Below are positions 1-6,338 of a stretch of 64,000 bases of DNA, piece after piece. How positions within the stretch are numbered: the stretch's first letter is position 1; every line of letters starts with the position of its first letter. A program made the position numbers and the translations under genes. The DNA comes from Cytophaga aurantiaca DSM 3654. Its GTDB lineage: Bacteria; Bacteroidota; Bacteroidia; Cytophagales; Cytophagaceae. The notes beneath the pieces are model-generated. The model was not told where the DNA came from, did not search any database, and saw nothing but the letters and a program-made list of their open reading frames with translations. The stretch lies in contig NZ_KB903643.1 of assembly GCF_000379725.1 (NCBI RefSeq), forward strand, positions 1 through 64,000, given 5' to 3'.

Positions 1-255
1 AAATATGATCCTTATCAAAATGCTGTTGCAGAACGCGTGAATGGTATACTTAAACAAGAATTCTTAGAGGGAATAAGCATTAAGGATTTACAGTTAATGC
101 GTTTATTGGTTGCTGAGTCAATTGATATTTACAACACGGAAAGACCACATTATTCAAATTATTATGAAACGCCTCAACAGATGCATAATCAATCTAAAAT
201 CAAAATGAGAACATATAAAAGCAAAATAGCATCACAAAAATGTGATGCTATTTAA
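1..255 (+). CDS. IS3-family transposase OrfB, C-terminal end (partial)
   Basis: This is the last 84 residues of an integrase-core transposase; the frame is open from base 1 and its start lies outside the window. The segment NAVAERVNGILKQEF matches the C-terminal part of the IS3-type DDE core, in which the Glu of AER would be the third catalytic acid. A YNTERPHY...TPQQ stretch follows, another hallmark of IS3 OrfB tails. The 3' end of the gene lies inside a 13-bp hairpin. Whether the element is intact cannot be judged because its left part is missing. The family call is confident; the IS subgroup is not assigned. Confidence 0.85.
   Translation, partial: KYDPYQNAVAERVNGILKQEFLEGISIKDLQLMRLLVAESIDIYNTERPHYSNYYETPQQMHNQSKIKMRTYKSKIASQKCDAI
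224..253 (+). terminator. Hairpin at the transposase 3' end
   Basis: A perfect 13-bp inverted repeat (224-236 with 241-253) has a four-base A loop and contains the last codons of the transposase. It probably ends element transcription or shields it from reading into the neighbouring gene. Confidence 0.6.
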
Positions 256-268
256 TAAATTGGTATCC

Positions 269-302
269 TTGTAAAACTGTATCGCTATTTCAGGACGACA
301 CA
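269..302. mobile_element. Probable right terminal inverted repeat of the IS3-type element
   Basis: The non-coding tail after the transposase ends in ...GGACGACACA near base 302. Read in reverse, the tip begins TGTGTCGTCCTG, consistent with the 5'-TG...CA-3' tips of IS3 elements. The left end is not in the window, so the repeat cannot be paired and the exact boundary is inferred. Confidence 0.4.
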
Positions 303-317
303 ATGTGTAGTGTTATC

Positions 318-644
318 TTATACAGAGAAACTTTCTCCGCAACCACAGGTTCTGCTTGCATTCGGATTTACAAAGTGAAATCCTTTGCCGTTTAAGCCAT
401 CTGTGAAATCAAGTGTCGTACCAAGAAGATATAAGAGACTTTTTTTGTCAACTAATATTTTGACACCTTTATCTTCAAATACCTGATCGGCTGCGTCTAT
501 TTTATTGTCAAAATCCAGGTCATACATCAAACCTGAACATCCGCCTCCTTTAACAGATACCCGAATGTTGTAATCATCTGTGTAACCTTCGCGTTGACGA
601 AGATCAGCTACATGGTCTTTTGCTTTATCTGTAATTGAGATCAT
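318..644 (-). CDS. IscA/SufA-like iron-sulfur cluster assembly protein
   Basis: This 108-residue A-type carrier is expected to bind or deliver Fe-S clusters (HesB/IscA family). The three signature cysteines are visible: Cys36 in GGGCSGLMY, and Cys100 and Cys102 in the C-terminal TCGCGESF. The length is normal for the family. It stands alone rather than in a suf or isc operon, with the IS3 end only about 15 bp beyond its stop codon. Which paralogue it is (IscA, SufA, ErpA) cannot be told from sequence alone. Confidence 0.92.
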   Translation of the reverse strand: MISITDKAKDHVADLRQREGYTDDYNIRVSVKGGGCSGLMYDLDFDNKIDAADQVFEDKGVKILVDKKSLLYLLGTTLDFTDGLNGKGFHFVNPNASRTCGCGESFSV

Positions 645-767
645 ACGTTGAATTATTTCCTTTTAATTTAAACACGTCCTTGTCGCAAATCGTTCGGTTT
701 AATAATGGAAATGTACGAAGTATTTTGGAGAAACGTTTCAATTGCTGGGAGAAGATAGTCGGGATGA

Positions 768-899
768 CTATTTTTTCCAGCTGCTGTTGTTCTTACGAAC
801 TTTTTTGTAGTCGTTCTTACAGCTCTTGCTTGCACGTACACAGCTCGCTCCGAGGAATAGGAGGATGCAAAGTGAAAGGATGATTTGTTTTGTTTTCAT
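768..899 (-). CDS. Small putative lipoprotein, tandem paralogue 1
   Basis: This 43-residue frame starts with ATG at 899 and ends with TAG. It has a basic start (MKTKQ), a hydrophobic core, and the lipobox-like LGASC with Cys20. The short, very basic mature part contains CVRASKSCKNDYKKVRK. It aligns closely with the next peptide upstream (921-1061): both have Cys20, then V-R-x-S-K-[ST]-C-[KR]. That likeness is the main evidence that both are real genes. Function is unknown; the product is probably a tiny membrane-anchored or exported cationic peptide. Confidence 0.65.
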   Translation of the reverse strand: MKTKQIILSLCILLFLGASCVRASKSCKNDYKKVRKNNSSWKK

Positions 900-920
900 A
901 ATGAATGAGAGAGAAGATTA

Positions 921-1061
921 TTATACCTTGAAGTTAGGATCTTTTTTTCTTCTTTTTTGAATTTTCTTTACGTTCTGACGACATGTCTTGCTAGAACGAA
1001 CACATTCTGTAAACGTTCCCACTGCAAAAGCAAGTATAAGGAAGAGTGCAATTTTTTTCAT
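921..1061 (-). CDS. Small secreted or lipoprotein-like peptide, tandem paralogue 2
   Basis: This 46-residue frame uses the ATG at 1061 (MKKIALFLILAFAV). A longer in-frame start would run into the divergent thiL gene, so the internal Met is preferred. A signal-like hydrophobic stretch leads to Cys20 (FTEC), a poorer lipobox than in its paralogue, then VRSSKTCRQNVKKIQKRRKK. The two cysteines and the V-R-x-S-K core match the neighbour, with only about 20 bp between the genes, so they look like a tandem duplication transcribed together. Function is unknown. Confidence 0.6.
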   Translation of the reverse strand: MKKIALFLILAFAVGTFTECVRSSKTCRQNVKKIQKRRKKDPNFKV

Positions 1062-1140
1062 AAATTTAAAGCTGTTAGTCGAGTTAATACCAGTAAAGTT
1101 ATAAAAAGTAACCATATAATTCAAATTGAAATTCAAATCA

Positions 1141-2187
1141 ATGAATAATACAAAACGTACAGAGTTGTCTGAAATTGGTGAATTTGGCCTTATTGACCGT
1201 TTAAAAGCATATTTGCCTGCAAAATCGGACAAAATAATTAAATCAATCGGCGATGATGCAGCCGTAATTAAGAATTCGGACGATTCGGTTCAGCTGATTT
1301 CTACCGATCTCTTGATGGAAGGAATTCACTTTGACTTAGCCTATACTCCCTTAAAACATTTGGGATATAAAGCGATTGCCGTGAATGTATCGGATATTGC
1401 TGCTATGTATGGTACGCCATCGCATGTAGTAGTTGGTTTGGCATTGAGCAATCGTTTTTCTGTAGAAGCAATTGAAGAATTGTATGCAGGTATGAAACTG
1501 GCGTGTGATACCTATTCGGTGGATTTAGTAGGCGGTGATACAACATCCAGCAGAAGTGGTTTAGGTATTTCTGTTACGGTTGTAGGTACGGCAAAAGCAG
1601 ATGAGGTTGTATATAGAAGCGGTGCACAGGTAAATGATCTGATCTGTGTAACGGGCGATCTGGGTGCCGCATTTATGGGCTTGCAGCTGTTGGAACGTGA
1701 GAAGCAGGTGTATCTTGCCAATCCGGAGATGCAGCCAGAGCTAACAGATAAAGAATATATTATTGAATGTCAGTTGAAGCCTGAAGCACGGATGGATGTT
1801 GTGAAGAGCTTGAAATCGTTGGGTTTGAAACCTACATCGATGATTGATATCTCAGATGGATTGGCTTCTGAATTGATGCATATCTGCAAAGAATCCAATG
1901 TAGGAGCGTATATCTACGAAGATAAATTGCCAATTGATCAAATGGCATTTGATACAGCACGAGAGTTTGATATCAATCCGTTAACAATTATGTTGAATGG
2001 AGGAGAAGATTATGAATTGTTGTTTACGATTCCTCAAAGCGATTACGAAAAAATAAGAAATCACCCGGATATTTCTGTGATCGGTTACATCAAATCAGCA
2101 GAGGAAGGGGTACATGTATATACCAAAGGAGATAATCTGGTACCTGTGACAGCACAGGGCTGGAATCATTTTAAAAGTTCTAAGTAA
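1141..2187 (+). CDS. thiL: Thiamine-monophosphate kinase
   Basis: The product phosphorylates thiamine monophosphate to the diphosphate, the last step of thiamine cofactor synthesis. The 348-residue product has the family's N-terminal LSEIGEFGLIDRL, an Asp-rich GDDAAV segment, STDLLMEGIHFD, GGDTT, and SDGL further on. The start at 1141 is chosen because the conserved N-terminus begins a few residues later; an in-frame ATG at 1126 would add only five residues. No other thiamine gene is adjacent, and the upstream peptide pair is divergent. Confidence 0.95.
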   Translation: MNNTKRTELSEIGEFGLIDRLKAYLPAKSDKIIKSIGDDAAVIKNSDDSVQLISTDLLMEGIHFDLAYTPLKHLGYKAIAVNVSDIAAMYGTPSHVVVGLALSNRFSVEAIEELYAGMKLACDTYSVDLVGGDTTSSRSGLGISVTVVGTAKADEVVYRSGAQVNDLICVTGDLGAAFMGLQLLEREKQVYLANPEMQPELTDKEYIIECQLKPEARMDVVKSLKSLGLKPTSMIDISDGLASELMHICKESNVGAYIYEDKLPIDQMAFDTAREFDINPLTIMLNGGEDYELLFTIPQSDYEKIRNHPDISVIGYIKSAEEGVHVYTKGDNLVPVTAQGWNHFKSSK

Positions 2188-2235
2188 TATGTTTTAAGTT
2201 TTAAGAATGTAAATATCAAGACTTGCTCAATAAAA

Positions 2236-2278
2236 TTACGTGTGAAGTTTTTCTTATTACTTAAAACTTCACACGTAA
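2236..2278. terminator. Bidirectional terminator between thiL and the 2285 gene
   Basis: A perfect 16-bp inverted repeat (2236-2251 with 2263-2278) lies between convergent genes, with T or A runs on both sides. Confidence 0.8.
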
Positions 2279-2284
2279 AACTTT

Positions 2285-2662
2285 TTAATCCTCCGGATAC
2301 GGTATAAACAAAAAGTTTGTAAACTCTTTGTCGACTACAAACAGGCAGCAGAATTCTTCCGGGTCTTTATAGGTTTCCCCAAAAGAATCAAATTTTTCTT
2401 TGTCGATAAATCCCAGCTGTTGAAATTCGTCTGCTGTAGATGCATAATAATTCCACTGTGTGCTTACTTCATTCTTACCAAGTAACAACTGGCCAAAAGG
2501 CAAGTCTGCTTTACAAATAGGGAAGATCGGATAATCTGAAATGCCACGGGCTTTTATCTGATACGCGCCTTCTTTTAATGTATCACACACGTGTATAAAA
2601 TCGGATGAAATTGTACCTAGAAATTTGCCATCAATATCTGCGTCGTTTGATTGGTCTGTCAT
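2285..2662 (-). CDS. Conserved hypothetical protein, 125 aa
   Basis: This is a soluble acidic protein without a signal peptide or membrane segment. It has a Cys pair (FCCLF) near residue 105 and ends in an acidic tail. It lies 30 bp downstream of another small minus-strand gene and probably shares the rlmD transcript. I do not recognise the domain; the compact alternating hydrophobic pattern suggests a single alpha/beta fold. Start and stop are well placed between a clear terminator and the upstream gene. Confidence 0.75.
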   Translation of the reverse strand: MTDQSNDADIDGKFLGTISSDFIHVCDTLKEGAYQIKARGISDYPIFPICKADLPFGQLLLGKNEVSTQWNYYASTADEFQQLGFIDKEKFDSFGETYKDPEEFCCLFVVDKEFTNFLFIPYPED

Positions 2663-2692
2663 AAATCGTATTGAAATTCTTGTTAACTATTT

Positions 2693-2902
2693 TTATCCCT
2701 GATCACCGTAGGGTTGTATGATGTACATGATGTTATTTGAATCCTGAGTTATTCCCTGATACCCGATTTCAGCTTCTTTTAATAATGTTTCAACTTCATC
2801 TTTTAGGGACCCACTTACTACAAATGAATCGTCGTATTTTAATGTGTCTTTTAAACGGTTTTCGTTTGCAAGTGTTCTTATTGAATCGATAGTTAGTTCC
2901 AT
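2693..2902 (-). CDS. Conserved small hypothetical protein, 69 aa
   Basis: This small acidic protein (start MELTIDSIRTLANENRL) has predicted helix-strand character and no export signal. It sits between rlmD (62 bp upstream) and the 125-residue protein, all on the minus strand, so it is probably translated from the same transcript. No family is recognised. Confidence rests on spacing and balanced composition rather than homology. Confidence 0.6.
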   Translation of the reverse strand: MELTIDSIRTLANENRLKDTLKYDDSFVVSGSLKDEVETLLKEAEIGYQGITQDSNNIMYIIQPYGDQG

Positions 2903-2964
2903 AGCAATAACGTTTTATTTGGTTGTTACTGAATTTAACTATTTCTATTCAATAATCATAGTGC

Positions 2965-4371
2965 TTAGGAGGATGCTCTTTTCGTTAACAGTACTACATT
3001 TTCCACATGCGCCGTATGGGGAAACATATCTACCGGTTGTATTTTTGTTACTTCATAATCTGCATCCAGCAATGCCAGATCGCGCGCCTGTGTTGCCGGG
3101 TTACAGCTTACATATACAATTTTAGGAGCACCGATAAACAACAAGGTATTGATTACATCTTCGTGCATACCTGCACGCGGCGGATCCGTAATGATCACAT
3201 CCGGACGTTGATGGCGTTCAATAAATTCTTTGTTCAATACATCTTTCATATCACCTGCATAAAACAAGGTATTATCGATGTTGTTGATCTTCGAATTCAC
3301 TTTTGCATCTTCAATCGCATCTGCAACATATTCAATACCGATCACCTGTTTGGCTTGCTTCGCTATAAAGTTTGCAATGGTACCGGTTCCTGTATATAAA
3401 TCATACACCACTTCGTTGCCGGTTAAACCTGCAAGATCGCGTGTTACTTTATACAACACATATGCCTGATCTGAATTTGTTTGATAAAAAGATTTTGGTC
3501 CAACGCGGAATGTTAAACCTTCCATTTCTTCCTGTATGTAAGGCGGACCGTGGAATGTGTGTACTTCCAGATCCGAATACGTATCGTTCTTTTTTGTATT
3601 GATGAAATAGACCAAAGAAGTTATTTGAGGAAATGTTTTTATCAAGTGACTTAACAGATCCTGAATAATTGTTTTATCATCGTAACCAAACTGCACCAAT
3701 ACCATCACTTCGTTTTTATTGGTAGTACGAATGATCAGGTTTCGTAAAAAACCTTCATGTGCACGTACGTTGTAAAATGTAAGTCCGTGTTTTAATGCGT
3801 ATGCTTTTACTTCCAGACGAATGGAATTGGATGGTTCAGGCTGAAGATGACATTTTTCAATATCCAGAACGCGATCAAATTTTCCGGGCAAATGAAAGCC
3901 CAGTCCATACAACGTATCGTGTTCAAGACTCATCTCTTCATCTGTCAGCCAGCGTTTGTTAGAGAAGGTGAAGTCTAATTTATTCCGGTACTCATAAATT
4001 TTAGAAGAACCAATAATATCTTTTATCTCGGGAATAGCAATTTTGCCTAAACGTTCAAGATTATCCTTTACCTGTTTTTGTTTGAAATGCAGTTGAGTGG
4101 TATAATCAATATGTTGAAGTTTGCATCCGCCGCATAAACCAAAGTGCTGGCATTTTGCTTCGACTCTGTTTGGCGAAGGAGTGATGATTTTATCGATCTT
4201 TGCTTCACCGAATTTCTTCTTTTTAAAATGAGTTACTTTCAAATCAACAACATCACCTGGAACAGTTTTTTCTGAGAAAACAACAATGTTGTTGTATCTG
4301 CTAACACATTTACCTTCTGCCCCCAATTCTTCTATGGAAACCGATTCTAATATTTGACCTCTTTCTAACAT
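2965..4371 (-). CDS. rlmD: 23S rRNA (uracil-1939-C5)-methyltransferase, RumA type
   Basis: This 468-residue SAM-dependent RNA uracil methyltransferase has an N-terminal TRAM-like beta domain (VVDLKVTHFKKKKFGEAK). The Fe-S ligand cluster CQHFGLCGGCKLQHI follows, then a Rossmann methyltransferase domain with DLYTGTGTIANF and DPPRAG, and the catalytic YVSCNP near the C-terminus. The ATG at 4371 (MLERGQILES) fits the family better than the in-frame ATG at 4392, which adds seven residues. Closely related TrmA/RlmC enzymes are possible alternatives; the cysteine cluster favours RlmD. Confidence 0.92.
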   Translation of the reverse strand: MLERGQILESVSIEELGAEGKCVSRYNNIVVFSEKTVPGDVVDLKVTHFKKKKFGEAKIDKIITPSPNRVEAKCQHFGLCGGCKLQHIDYTTQLHFKQKQVKDNLERLGKIAIPEIKDIIGSSKIYEYRNKLDFTFSNKRWLTDEEMSLEHDTLYGLGFHLPGKFDRVLDIEKCHLQPEPSNSIRLEVKAYALKHGLTFYNVRAHEGFLRNLIIRTTNKNEVMVLVQFGYDDKTIIQDLLSHLIKTFPQITSLVYFINTKKNDTYSDLEVHTFHGPPYIQEEMEGLTFRVGPKSFYQTNSDQAYVLYKVTRDLAGLTGNEVVYDLYTGTGTIANFIAKQAKQVIGIEYVADAIEDAKVNSKINNIDNTLFYAGDMKDVLNKEFIERHQRPDVIITDPPRAGMHEDVINTLLFIGAPKIVYVSCNPATQARDLALLDADYEVTKIQPVDMFPHTAHVENVVLLTKRASS

Positions 4372-4446
4372 AATTAATACAAAAGTACGCAATAATTTGG
4401 TTGAATAAACGGTTGTTGATTATTCTGAGTAATCATGAAAAAAATG

Positions 4447-4454
4447 TATATTTG
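4447..4454 (+). promoter_or_regulatory. Bacteroidota-type -7 box (TATATTTG)
   Basis: TATATTTG fits the TAnnTTTG consensus and lies about 28 bases before the ATG at 4482. It therefore supports that start over the longer frame beginning at 4401. No clear TTTG upstream box is present. Confidence 0.4.
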
Positions 4455-4481
4455 ATTAGGTTAACGGGTTCATTAGAAGTT

Positions 4482-6338
4482 ATGAATAAGCAATTTTTAA
4501 GAAGTTTTATTTTTCTGGTTATCTGCTTTTTCATTCAAACGTTAAGTTATGCAACTCATATTGTTGGTGGTGAAATTGTACTGGAAAGGACCGGTAATGG
4601 AAACCGGTACAGGGTTATTTTGAATAAGTACATCAATGAGATCAGTGTTCGCCAACATGGTATATCAACGTCTACTGTAGCATACGTAGATATCTATGAT
4701 AAAAATACGAATATCCTGTTAACAAGCCCTTCCATGCGTTTGGATCTGGTCACAAATGACTTGTTAAGCAATAATGGAAATTATTGCAGCAATCTAACAA
4801 TTATTGAAACGAGTAAACAGGTATACATGGGTGAAATTGATCTGGGCGCCGCGATGTTCAGCCCAACAGGTAGTTATTATATTACCTGGTCTGACTGCTG
4901 CAGAAATCAGGAGATTGCTAATCTGAAAGCTCCAAAGAATGAAAATATAGCTTTGTATACAGAATTTAGAGGTTATGCAATACAAGATGATTCACCTAAG
5001 TTTGTGCCCGTTGGAAACGATTTTTTTTGCAGAAACAACGTAAATGTATTTGATCTGAGTGCAGTTGATCGGGATGGTGATGATTTGAAGTATAGCCTGG
5101 TTGCTCCAAGAAGTTCTGTTAATCCCAGTACAGATGTTGTATGGGATACTACGACCAATAAAAATAGTGGAGATAATCCTATACCGGGAAGTATGCCCTT
5201 TACGATTGATCCAACCACAGGTATAGCAACATTTAATCCTTCTGCGAATGGTGTTTATGTATTTGGAGTGAAGGTGGAGGAATTTAGAAACGGACAAAAA
5301 ATAGGGGAAGTGCGAAGAGATTTTCAACTGAACGTTCAGGATTGTCCGGTGAATAATAAACCGGTCATTGCATTCCAAAACAGCGGGATCAAAGTGAGAG
5401 ATACGTTGAGTGTTAAACTAAAAGGTGGAGGATGTTTTCCTATTTATATTACGGATGTAGATGCTACACACTTTATTTCAGAAACGATTTATATCAATAC
5501 CCGATCAAATCTTCCTGCGGGCTCTACCAATACACCCTACCCGACATCCGGTTTTACAATACCTTCGCAAGTTCCACTAACAGGCTTTAGAGATACTACA
5601 TGGTTTAATGCCTGCTTTGATCCATGTGCAGGCGGTTTACGCCTTGATGAAACAACTTATTATCCATTCAAAATTGTTATTAATGATAATCGCTGTCCGG
5701 CAAAATATGATACATTGATTTTTACAATTCGAATTGAGGTTGAAAAGAACACACAGCCGCAAATATTTATTGATCCTCCAGGCAATCCGAAAACAGTTAA
5801 AGTAGATGAGCAATTGAAATTTAACGTGTATGGTACGGATGCCGATGCAGGCGATCTCTTATCTCTGAAAATTGCAAATCCCCAGCGGGGCATGAGTTTC
5901 ATGAATGTTCAAGACAGCAGTTCAACGATCAGTTCAATGTTTTCGTGGCGGCCTAATTGCAATGATCTGCATCCGGGAAATTATGATGTATATTTTATCA
6001 TAAAAGATAATAGTTGTACGAATAATCCAAGAGACACGATACATCAAAGAATTCTTGTTCAGCAGGATGATGTATCTTTTGATGGTATGGAAGTCACAAA
6101 CTTAATTACTCCCAATGGTGATGGGATGAACGATTACTATCACATTCCGGGTATACCCGTGGGCAATTGCGATAAGTATTTTAAAGGAATAGAAATATAT
6201 AACCGCTGGGGTTCAAGAGTATTTTACAGTCAGGATCCCGGATTTAAGTGGTATCCGAATGTAAGTGATGGAGTGTATTATTTCTCTATCGATCTAAATT
6301 ATGAAGTCCGGAAAGGCTGGCTCCAAATAACTCAATAG
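4482..6338 (+). CDS. Type IX-secreted surface protein with gliding-motility C-terminal domain
   Basis: This 618-residue exported protein has a signal peptide (MNKQFLRSFIFLVICFF...SYA) followed at once by THIVGGEI, an N-terminal module also present in the 53133 gene. The middle has cysteine-containing beta-rich domains and cadherin-like calcium motifs (DRDGDDLKYSL, DADAGDLLSLKI). Residues about 538-618 are a CHU/gliding-type sorting domain: LITPNGDGMNDYYHI, then IEIYNRWGSRVF and VSDGVYYF. It is probably released or attached to the cell surface through the type IX system. No catalytic domain was recognised; the role is likely adhesion or structure. Confidence 0.85.
   Translation: MNKQFLRSFIFLVICFFIQTLSYATHIVGGEIVLERTGNGNRYRVILNKYINEISVRQHGISTSTVAYVDIYDKNTNILLTSPSMRLDLVTNDLLSNNGNYCSNLTIIETSKQVYMGEIDLGAAMFSPTGSYYITWSDCCRNQEIANLKAPKNENIALYTEFRGYAIQDDSPKFVPVGNDFFCRNNVNVFDLSAVDRDGDDLKYSLVAPRSSVNPSTDVVWDTTTNKNSGDNPIPGSMPFTIDPTTGIATFNPSANGVYVFGVKVEEFRNGQKIGEVRRDFQLNVQDCPVNNKPVIAFQNSGIKVRDTLSVKLKGGGCFPIYITDVDATHFISETIYINTRSNLPAGSTNTPYPTSGFTIPSQVPLTGFRDTTWFNACFDPCAGGLRLDETTYYPFKIVINDNRCPAKYDTLIFTIRIEVEKNTQPQIFIDPPGNPKTVKVDEQLKFNVYGTDADAGDLLSLKIANPQRGMSFMNVQDSSSTISSMFSWRPNCNDLHPGNYDVYFIIKDNSCTNNPRDTIHQRILVQQDDVSFDGMEVTNLITPNGDGMNDYYHIPGIPVGNCDKYFKGIEIYNRWGSRVFYSQDPGFKWYPNVSDGVYYFSIDLNYEVRKGWLQITQ

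Follow-up and report, generated by a model that had tools for sequence, protein, structure and literature searches.

At the start of a contig of Cytophaga aurantiaca, two adjacent reading frames, so short that genes of this size are easily missed, raise a twofold question, namely whether they are genuine genes and, if so, what a pair of very basic, lipoprotein-like peptides may be doing in this bacterium. The window considered here is the whole stretch of DNA analysed, 64,000 nucleotides in length, and the features of the locus are as follows.

318..644, minus strand: downstream neighbour iscA, an IscA/ErpA-type iron-sulphur carrier of 108 aa (TIGR00049, E 6.2e-36), taken as context and probably outside the system.
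708..715, minus strand: possible separate -7 box for iscA, a weak candidate read from the alignment (TACATTTC in the window, TACATTTA in G002 and G003).
768..899, minus strand: second micro-gene (p1 type), ATG at 899, 43 aa (MKTKQIILSLCILLFLGASCVRASKSCKNDYKKVRKNNSSWKK), with LGASC lipobox, Cys27, tail of net charge +8 and SSWKK end.
921..1061, minus strand: first micro-gene (p2 type), ATG at 1061, 46 aa (MKKIALFLILAFAVGTFTECVRSSKTCRQNVKKIQKRRKKDPNFKV), with signal 1-19, Cys20, Cys27 and basic tail of net charge +10.
1094..1101, minus strand: -7 promoter-like box TAACTTTA, beginning 40 nt before the ATG at 1061 and differing in its last base from the Bacteroidetes consensus TANNTTTG.
1122..1125, minus strand: -33 promoter-like TTTG, 20 nt before the -7 box.
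1141..2187, plus strand: divergent neighbour thiL, a thiamine-phosphate kinase of 348 aa (TIGR01379, E 9.3e-96), taken as context.

The architecture announced by the original prediction, that is two neighbouring minus-strand frames of 43 and 46 residues sharing a signal peptide, Cys20, the motif V-R-x-S-K-[ST]-C-[KR] and a very basic tail, was confirmed with lengths and motifs as claimed. Both peptides begin with basic residues, followed by a hydrophobic stretch, Cys20, the sequence V-R-[SA]-S-K-[ST]-C27-[KR] and a Lys/Arg-rich tail, the net tail charges being counted from Cys20 on, and p1 lies downstream of p2 after a gap of 21 nt. While a mechanical list of open reading frames lets the 46-aa frame open at a TTG (103 aa), the relatives point to the ATG at 1061 as the true start. 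A scan with our own rule over the window and 400 kb of G002, a sample excluding the locus of G002's own pair, retrieved 8 small lipoprotein-like ORFs, with a tail net charge of at least +7 only in the window's pair.

Regarding the first part of the question, the two frames are real protein-coding genes under purifying selection, because they have relatives, low dN/dS, a third-position bias and a stop-free reading in their own frame only. Relatives of p2 were found in 18 of the 19 genomes of the family Cytophagaceae (E 0.1), with E-values of 2.6e-8 or better in G000 (the window's own genome), G002, G003, G004 and G009, and up to 0.037 elsewhere in the family. Among the three Cytophaga genomes compared (G000, G002 and G003), the dN/dS of p2 was 0.11 (G000-G002), and p1 gave a pS of 0.76 vs. 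a pN of 0.16, its dS being saturated. Against G002, third codon positions hold 15 of the 20 differences in p2 and 22 of the 35 in p1 (P = 1.7e-4 and 3.3e-4, respectively), and over all Cytophaga comparisons the shares were 15/20, 26/38 and 21/30 for p2 and 22/35, 27/43 and 23/39 for p1 (P 1e-5 to 9e-4). When the six frames were checked, internal stops were absent from all three species only in the gene's own frame. The earlier expectations of homologues in related genomes, of substitutions biased by codon position and of selection acting on the peptide were thus all borne out, selection being purifying wherever it could be computed, in Cytophaga as in its relatives, despite the small size of these genes.

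Beyond the family, a profile from 20 relatives had matches in 29 of the 390 order genomes. As the matches of the full-length profile in a phylum sample (24/395 genomes) nearly all cover mainly the signal peptide, the window's own genome aside, a mature-only profile was used; it matched 26/390 order genomes, i.e. 18/19 in the family plus 8 in three other families (f3, f16 and f20), and a single genome of the phylum sample (1/395), the window's own. Built from earlier matches, this mature-only profile added no genome beyond the order search with the 20-relative profile, and E-values are not independent for rows already included in a profile. These probable envelope micro-lipoproteins are thus mostly confined to one family of Cytophagales.

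Within 29 aligned relatives, Cys20 and Cys27 are the sole invariant residues, although their spacing differs in two rows and the invariance is partly a matter of ascertainment, as the profile seeds carried these Cys residues and G356, a thiL-slot peptide lacking the second Cys, was omitted from the family alignments A3 and A5. Also omitted were a CPQIDC-type family (L022, L026, L028 and L030), L003, L027, L029 and L031, close copies (such as G006 and G016-G018), as well as G021, G340 and G079:C25. Three branches can be distinguished: p2, with tails such as KKIKKMRKNNPNFKM; p1, with a Trp second or third from the C terminus and forming a single clade of 6 rows (support 97/92); and L, with an [LM]HL[KQT]NW end, likewise a single clade of 6 rows (support 100/99), placed inside p2 by a tree that is unrooted, spans 46 columns and leaves many forks open. 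In all six cases (G000, G002, G003, G009, G001 and G008), p1 lies directly 3' of p2, with gaps of 21, 19, 11, -1, 6 and 11 nt, respectively, and p1 was seen nowhere else. Because the p1 rows of the four genera carrying both genes form their own clade, the duplication predates the split of these genera. The neighbours were rightly regarded as duplicates, and old ones, a recent tandem duplication being rejected on this same tree of 46 columns and many open forks. As p2 was found without p1 in most genera, a complex of p1 and p2 cannot be the whole function.

Upstream of the pair lies a promoter-like element of the type described for Bacteroidetes, whose -33/-7 consensus is given as TTTG/TANNTTTG in the part of the literature cited here (PMC6847099). 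The arrangement TTTG-N20-TAACTTTA is present in all three Cytophaga genomes, with the -7 box starting 39-41 nt before the ATG, for a chance of 0.012-0.016 per sequence, these sequences not being independent. Of 17 relatives, which are again not independent, 11 have a -7 box at most 80 nt upstream, vs. 4.3 expected; G004-G007 carry TAATTTAG in its place, and none was found within 80 nt upstream in G010 and G014. Sigma-70 promoters (5 found vs. 3.7 expected) were set aside for the Bacteroidetes type, and a search for terminators returned none. Since a TACATTT[AC] element precedes iscA, the sequence weakly suggests that this gene has its own promoter.

As to the fate of the peptides, the term lipoprotein-like holds well for the 43-mer and is uncertain for the 46-mer. 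Among 33 long-ORF lipoprotein candidates, collected with our own loose rule from 400 kb of G002 and the window, 16 have S, 5 have A and 3 have N immediately before the Cys, and none has D or E there. With S at -1 in its LGASC lipobox, p1 resembles these 16 candidates and is likely lipidated. By contrast, p2 has a Glu before the Cys (FTEC), and either E or D is found there in the p2 of Cytophaga; across genera, D/E precedes the Cys of p2 in five, Cytophaga included, and S or G in five others. As to p1, D is found in G009 and S, A or G in the other five of six genomes. Because D/E was absent from all 33 background candidates, cleavage by signal peptidase II is doubtful for members of the D/E type, and lipidation of p2 is uncertain.

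This acidic residue brings in a different topology, in which both products would stay uncleaved in the inner membrane, anchored by the hydrophobic stretch, with a basic tail kept in the cytoplasm by the positive-inside rule and binding nucleic acid, the ribosome or an acidic lipid. Such a topology would fit the D/E found in the p2 of five genera and in 0/33 candidates, as well as a tail (+10) far more basic than the N terminus, yet the S, A or G before the Cys of p1 in 5/6 genomes and the S or G of p2 in five genera speak against it, and it fails to explain why the hydrophobic stretch closes with Cys20 in 29/29 rows. It is considered rather unlikely. The first option of the original prediction, an envelope micro-protein, is supported.

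In other Bacteroidetes, the lipoprotein export signal is described as K-(D/E)2 or Q-A-(D/E)2 at positions +2 to +6 in the part of the source cited here (PMC5080379). Behind the Cys of the pair, VRSSK and VRASK contain no acidic residue, and neither these signals nor an SDDDD-like one, as defined in that part of the source (PMC5080379), are present. Because this signal, defined for other Bacteroidetes in that part of the source (PMC5080379), is absent behind the Cys, the peptides are predicted to face the periplasmic side rather than the cell surface. An AlphaFold2 model from a single sequence without alignment has helices at 4-23 and 25-40 (mean pLDDT 74.6, pTM 0.35), and the amphipathicity of the tail, measured as helical moment, is not significant, 0.10-0.23 of shuffles being as high.

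Taken as an envelope pair, the two genes would form a bicistron with its own promoter, giving two paralogous micro-lipoproteins, each exported by Sec, cut at Cys20 and lipidated. The mature peptides, of 24 and 27 residues, would be anchored in a membrane, facing the periplasm, each folded into a short and strongly basic helix that has only one further Cys and ends in an aromatic or aliphatic residue. This helix would serve as an electrostatic anchor on an anionic surface (lipid A, another acidic lipid or the cell wall) or for a partner protein, and Cys27 would form a disulphide between neighbouring copies, perhaps between p1 and p2. That the pair belongs to a new family of periplasm-facing cationic micro-lipoproteins, with a basic helix holding an anionic envelope surface or a partner, is given about an even chance; were it true, a small and deletable part of the envelope would be named.

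The genomic neighbourhood might suggest another role. Among 18 loci of the family, thiL is the divergent neighbour in 17, across 9 genera, the contig ending at the 18th (G012), and iscA lies within a few kb of the peptide genes in 16. Since the pair adjoins both genes, it could be an accessory of iron-sulphur or thiamine metabolism, i.e. a metal-binding peptide working with IscA or ThiL. Outside the family, 79 thiL loci of 79 genomes (19 + 60) were examined, drawn from the 123 non-family genomes with a thiL match (134 of 148 genomes searched matched, 11 of them in the family). In 12 of these 79 loci, iscA stands beside thiL, and in 8 of these 12 a micro-lipoprotein was not found in the slot when ATG, GTG and TTG starts were scanned, the addition of GTG and TTG to the ATG scan having gained G027 and one chance-like candidate (G084). 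As the thiL-iscA order thus also exists without a detected peptide, an iron-sulphur role is not supported, and this coupling was rejected as the main reading. Besides, paralogues of the family occur in contexts other than the thiL slot, and the peptides carry an export signal whereas IscA and ThiL are cytoplasmic proteins. Metal binding, one of the functions initially proposed, fits poorly for the same reason of synteny and also because this branch offers just one invariant candidate ligand, a Cys that is not lipidated, and no conserved His. A link to IscA or ThiL is accordingly regarded as scarcely credible.

The neighbours common to the pair in the window and in relatives are thiL, iscA and a further gene which we take to be VOC-like; no transporter, protease or modification gene stood out as common to these loci. 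This bears on the possibility that the cell releases the peptides for signalling or antimicrobial action, to which a strongly cationic mature part and a terminal aromatic residue would lend themselves. Released peptides would be at odds not only with such a neighbourhood but also with a lipid-anchor signal and with conservation both within and between genera, unlike that of most competitive peptides. The antimicrobial action first envisaged is likewise disfavoured by the conserved chromosomal slot and by the lack of any match of the 46-mer to phage and plasmid records at E 0.1, so that release from the cell is held to be very improbable. A RiPP precursor was also rejected, other members reaching only sub-cut-off matches to chryseobasin models (E about 0.02).

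Several other features were recorded around these loci. The contig (G000:C24) starts within an open frame at 1-255 that resembles the end of an IS3-type transposase. On the minus strand, Pfam and NCBIfam returned nothing for a 125-aa ORF at 2285-2662, relatives of which occur at 7 further thiL loci, and Pfam nothing for a 69-aa ORF at 2693-2902. The product of 4401-6338, 645 aa long, carries a type IX secretion sorting domain of the CHU_C kind (PF13585, E 1.6e-14). Just behind iscA, G008 has an additional basic ORF (L063 4272-4400), lipoprotein-like and 42 aa long, with a C-x3-C start.

The thiL slot can also be occupied by another micro-lipoprotein. Family II, with the tail GKKKxKYYNS[IL]QY, is found there in 9 of the 79 non-family loci (L159, L186, L188, L192, L193, L197, L214, L224 and L244), in other Cytophagales families and including G027 with its GTG start, and G356 has one further peptide of this type. 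The family II profile (8 rows) matched 22/157 order genomes at E 0.05, of which 7 are its own seeds and several others are weak, and 2/90 genomes of a phylum sample, one within the order and one weak. Family II resembles the pair in its slot, its lipoprotein-like signal, an often present second Cys (Tyr or Phe in the f19 members and G086), its basic tail and its aromatic end, but hhalign returned no alignment between the two profiles, and treating families I and II as one family was rejected upon this failed comparison. While G356 matches the full-length family I profile (E 4.3e-4), this match may rest on the signal peptide because the mature-only profile misses it. The rows of G020 and G130 mix the C-x6-C of family I with an IQ[YF]Q end like that of family II, and a common origin of the two families is possible. 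L022, L026, L028 and L030 belong to yet another family of tiny lipoprotein-like proteins, in which a basic stretch is combined with a C-terminal C-P-[QR]-I-D-C.

A different association appears in the L branch. At 9 loci, each in a different genome, a relative with the [LM]HL[KQT]NW stretch immediately follows a short protein encoded on the same strand, and these short proteins all belong to one blastp cluster (L072, L074, L076, L077, L080, L081, L086, L087 and L088). One member of the cluster matches the LIC11966 model NF047958 at E 5.6e-37 and three, including that one, at E < 1e-30, the remaining members being assigned to the LIC11966 type through the blastp clustering. The L-type peptide extends 12 residues past the W in G117 and G142, and three such micro-genes stand in a row in G104; G010:C95 and G011:C202 each have a peptide that ends much the same, in NLK[NS]W, but lacks a LIC11966-type neighbour. 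Over 12 genomes scanned, NF047958 gave 26 matches in 10, and the three strongest lie beside a peptide gene. The 12 remaining NF047958 places of these genomes, G008:C338 among them, are mostly frames of about 350 residues with two matches, and a basic micro-lipoprotein was found at none of them. One of these 12 (G008:C413:9966) is a short form and itself lipoprotein-like (LSSC), so that 3 of the 4 short forms in these genomes are linked to the peptide. In the window's own genome, LIC11966 occurs only as the weaker, unlinked two-match form. Because the short proteins are about neutral in 8 of the 9 loci (net charge -1 to +2, counted from residue 21 on), a simple charge attraction to the peptide is not indicated. 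Titles retrieved under the name LIC11966 concern only Leptospira and complement evasion.

Extending the anchor reading, one could imagine in Cytophagales a modular set of lipid-anchored cationic micro-proteins with their own partners, where a Cys27-linked p2-p1 heterodimer would occupy the thiL slot, the LHLxNW type would dock short LIC11966-type periplasmic proteins to the membrane, and family II would be a far-diverged branch in the same slot. This broader scheme is quite doubtful. If the anchor reading itself holds, it would provide a possible membrane partner for LIC11966-type proteins.

In the libraries searched, the pair matches no catalogued family beyond weak matches, and no report of this micro-lipoprotein family was found in the literature searched. 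Neither peptide matched a Pfam family at E 10, and 29 relatives gave 14 scattered weak families at E 0.1 (best E 0.0015). Against NCBIfam at E 10, p2 had no match and p1 only LytA (E 0.073), and the relatives had weak matches (best E 0.00092), many of them to lipoprotein models such as PG1828 and SA0632 (4/29 and 3/29 relatives, respectively), well short of the curated cut-off wherever one is printed. PHROGs gave nothing for p1, a best E of 0.043 for p2, and E 0.0011 for a family II member against an Rz-like spanin over residues 5-27; PADLOC defence models matched none of four peptides, the pair included, at E 0.1, and the best PDB match had an E of 0.37 at profile positions 1-25.

Two known kinds of system share the format of the pair and would make it a small membrane toxin, either of a type I toxin-antitoxin with a Hok-like layout or as an entericidin-like pair of lysis lipoproteins. 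Hok-type membrane toxins have a similar length, one membrane stretch and a second Cys, and the pair shares this layout, with its short membrane stretch, second Cys and charged tail. Yet Rfam over 1-5000, which would reveal described RNAs only, gave a single chance-level IS009 match and no antitoxin RNA, the Hok/Gef model is neither matched by the pair at E 10 nor among the 14 Pfam families of the 29 relatives, and the synteny of the pair is conserved. Such a slot, kept under purifying selection in 9 genera, and the 46-mer's lack of phage or plasmid matches at E 0.1 also run against a toxin, which is deemed a slim chance. The same format is seen in the tandem pair of very short lipoproteins formed by entericidin A and B in E. 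coli, to which two tandem lipoprotein-like peptides of 43-46 residues may be likened; the entericidin Pfam model is nevertheless unmatched by the pair (E 10) and not among the 14 families matched by the relatives (E 0.1). Atu8019 of Agrobacterium is, in the part of the report cited here, an entericidin-type surface lipoprotein interacting with membranes (PMC7296081), exposed at the surface while the pair is predicted to be periplasmic. Entericidin-type lipoproteins and the pair are alike as very short lipoproteins, which the pair are predicted to be, and the pair differs by its second invariant Cys and its strongly basic tail.
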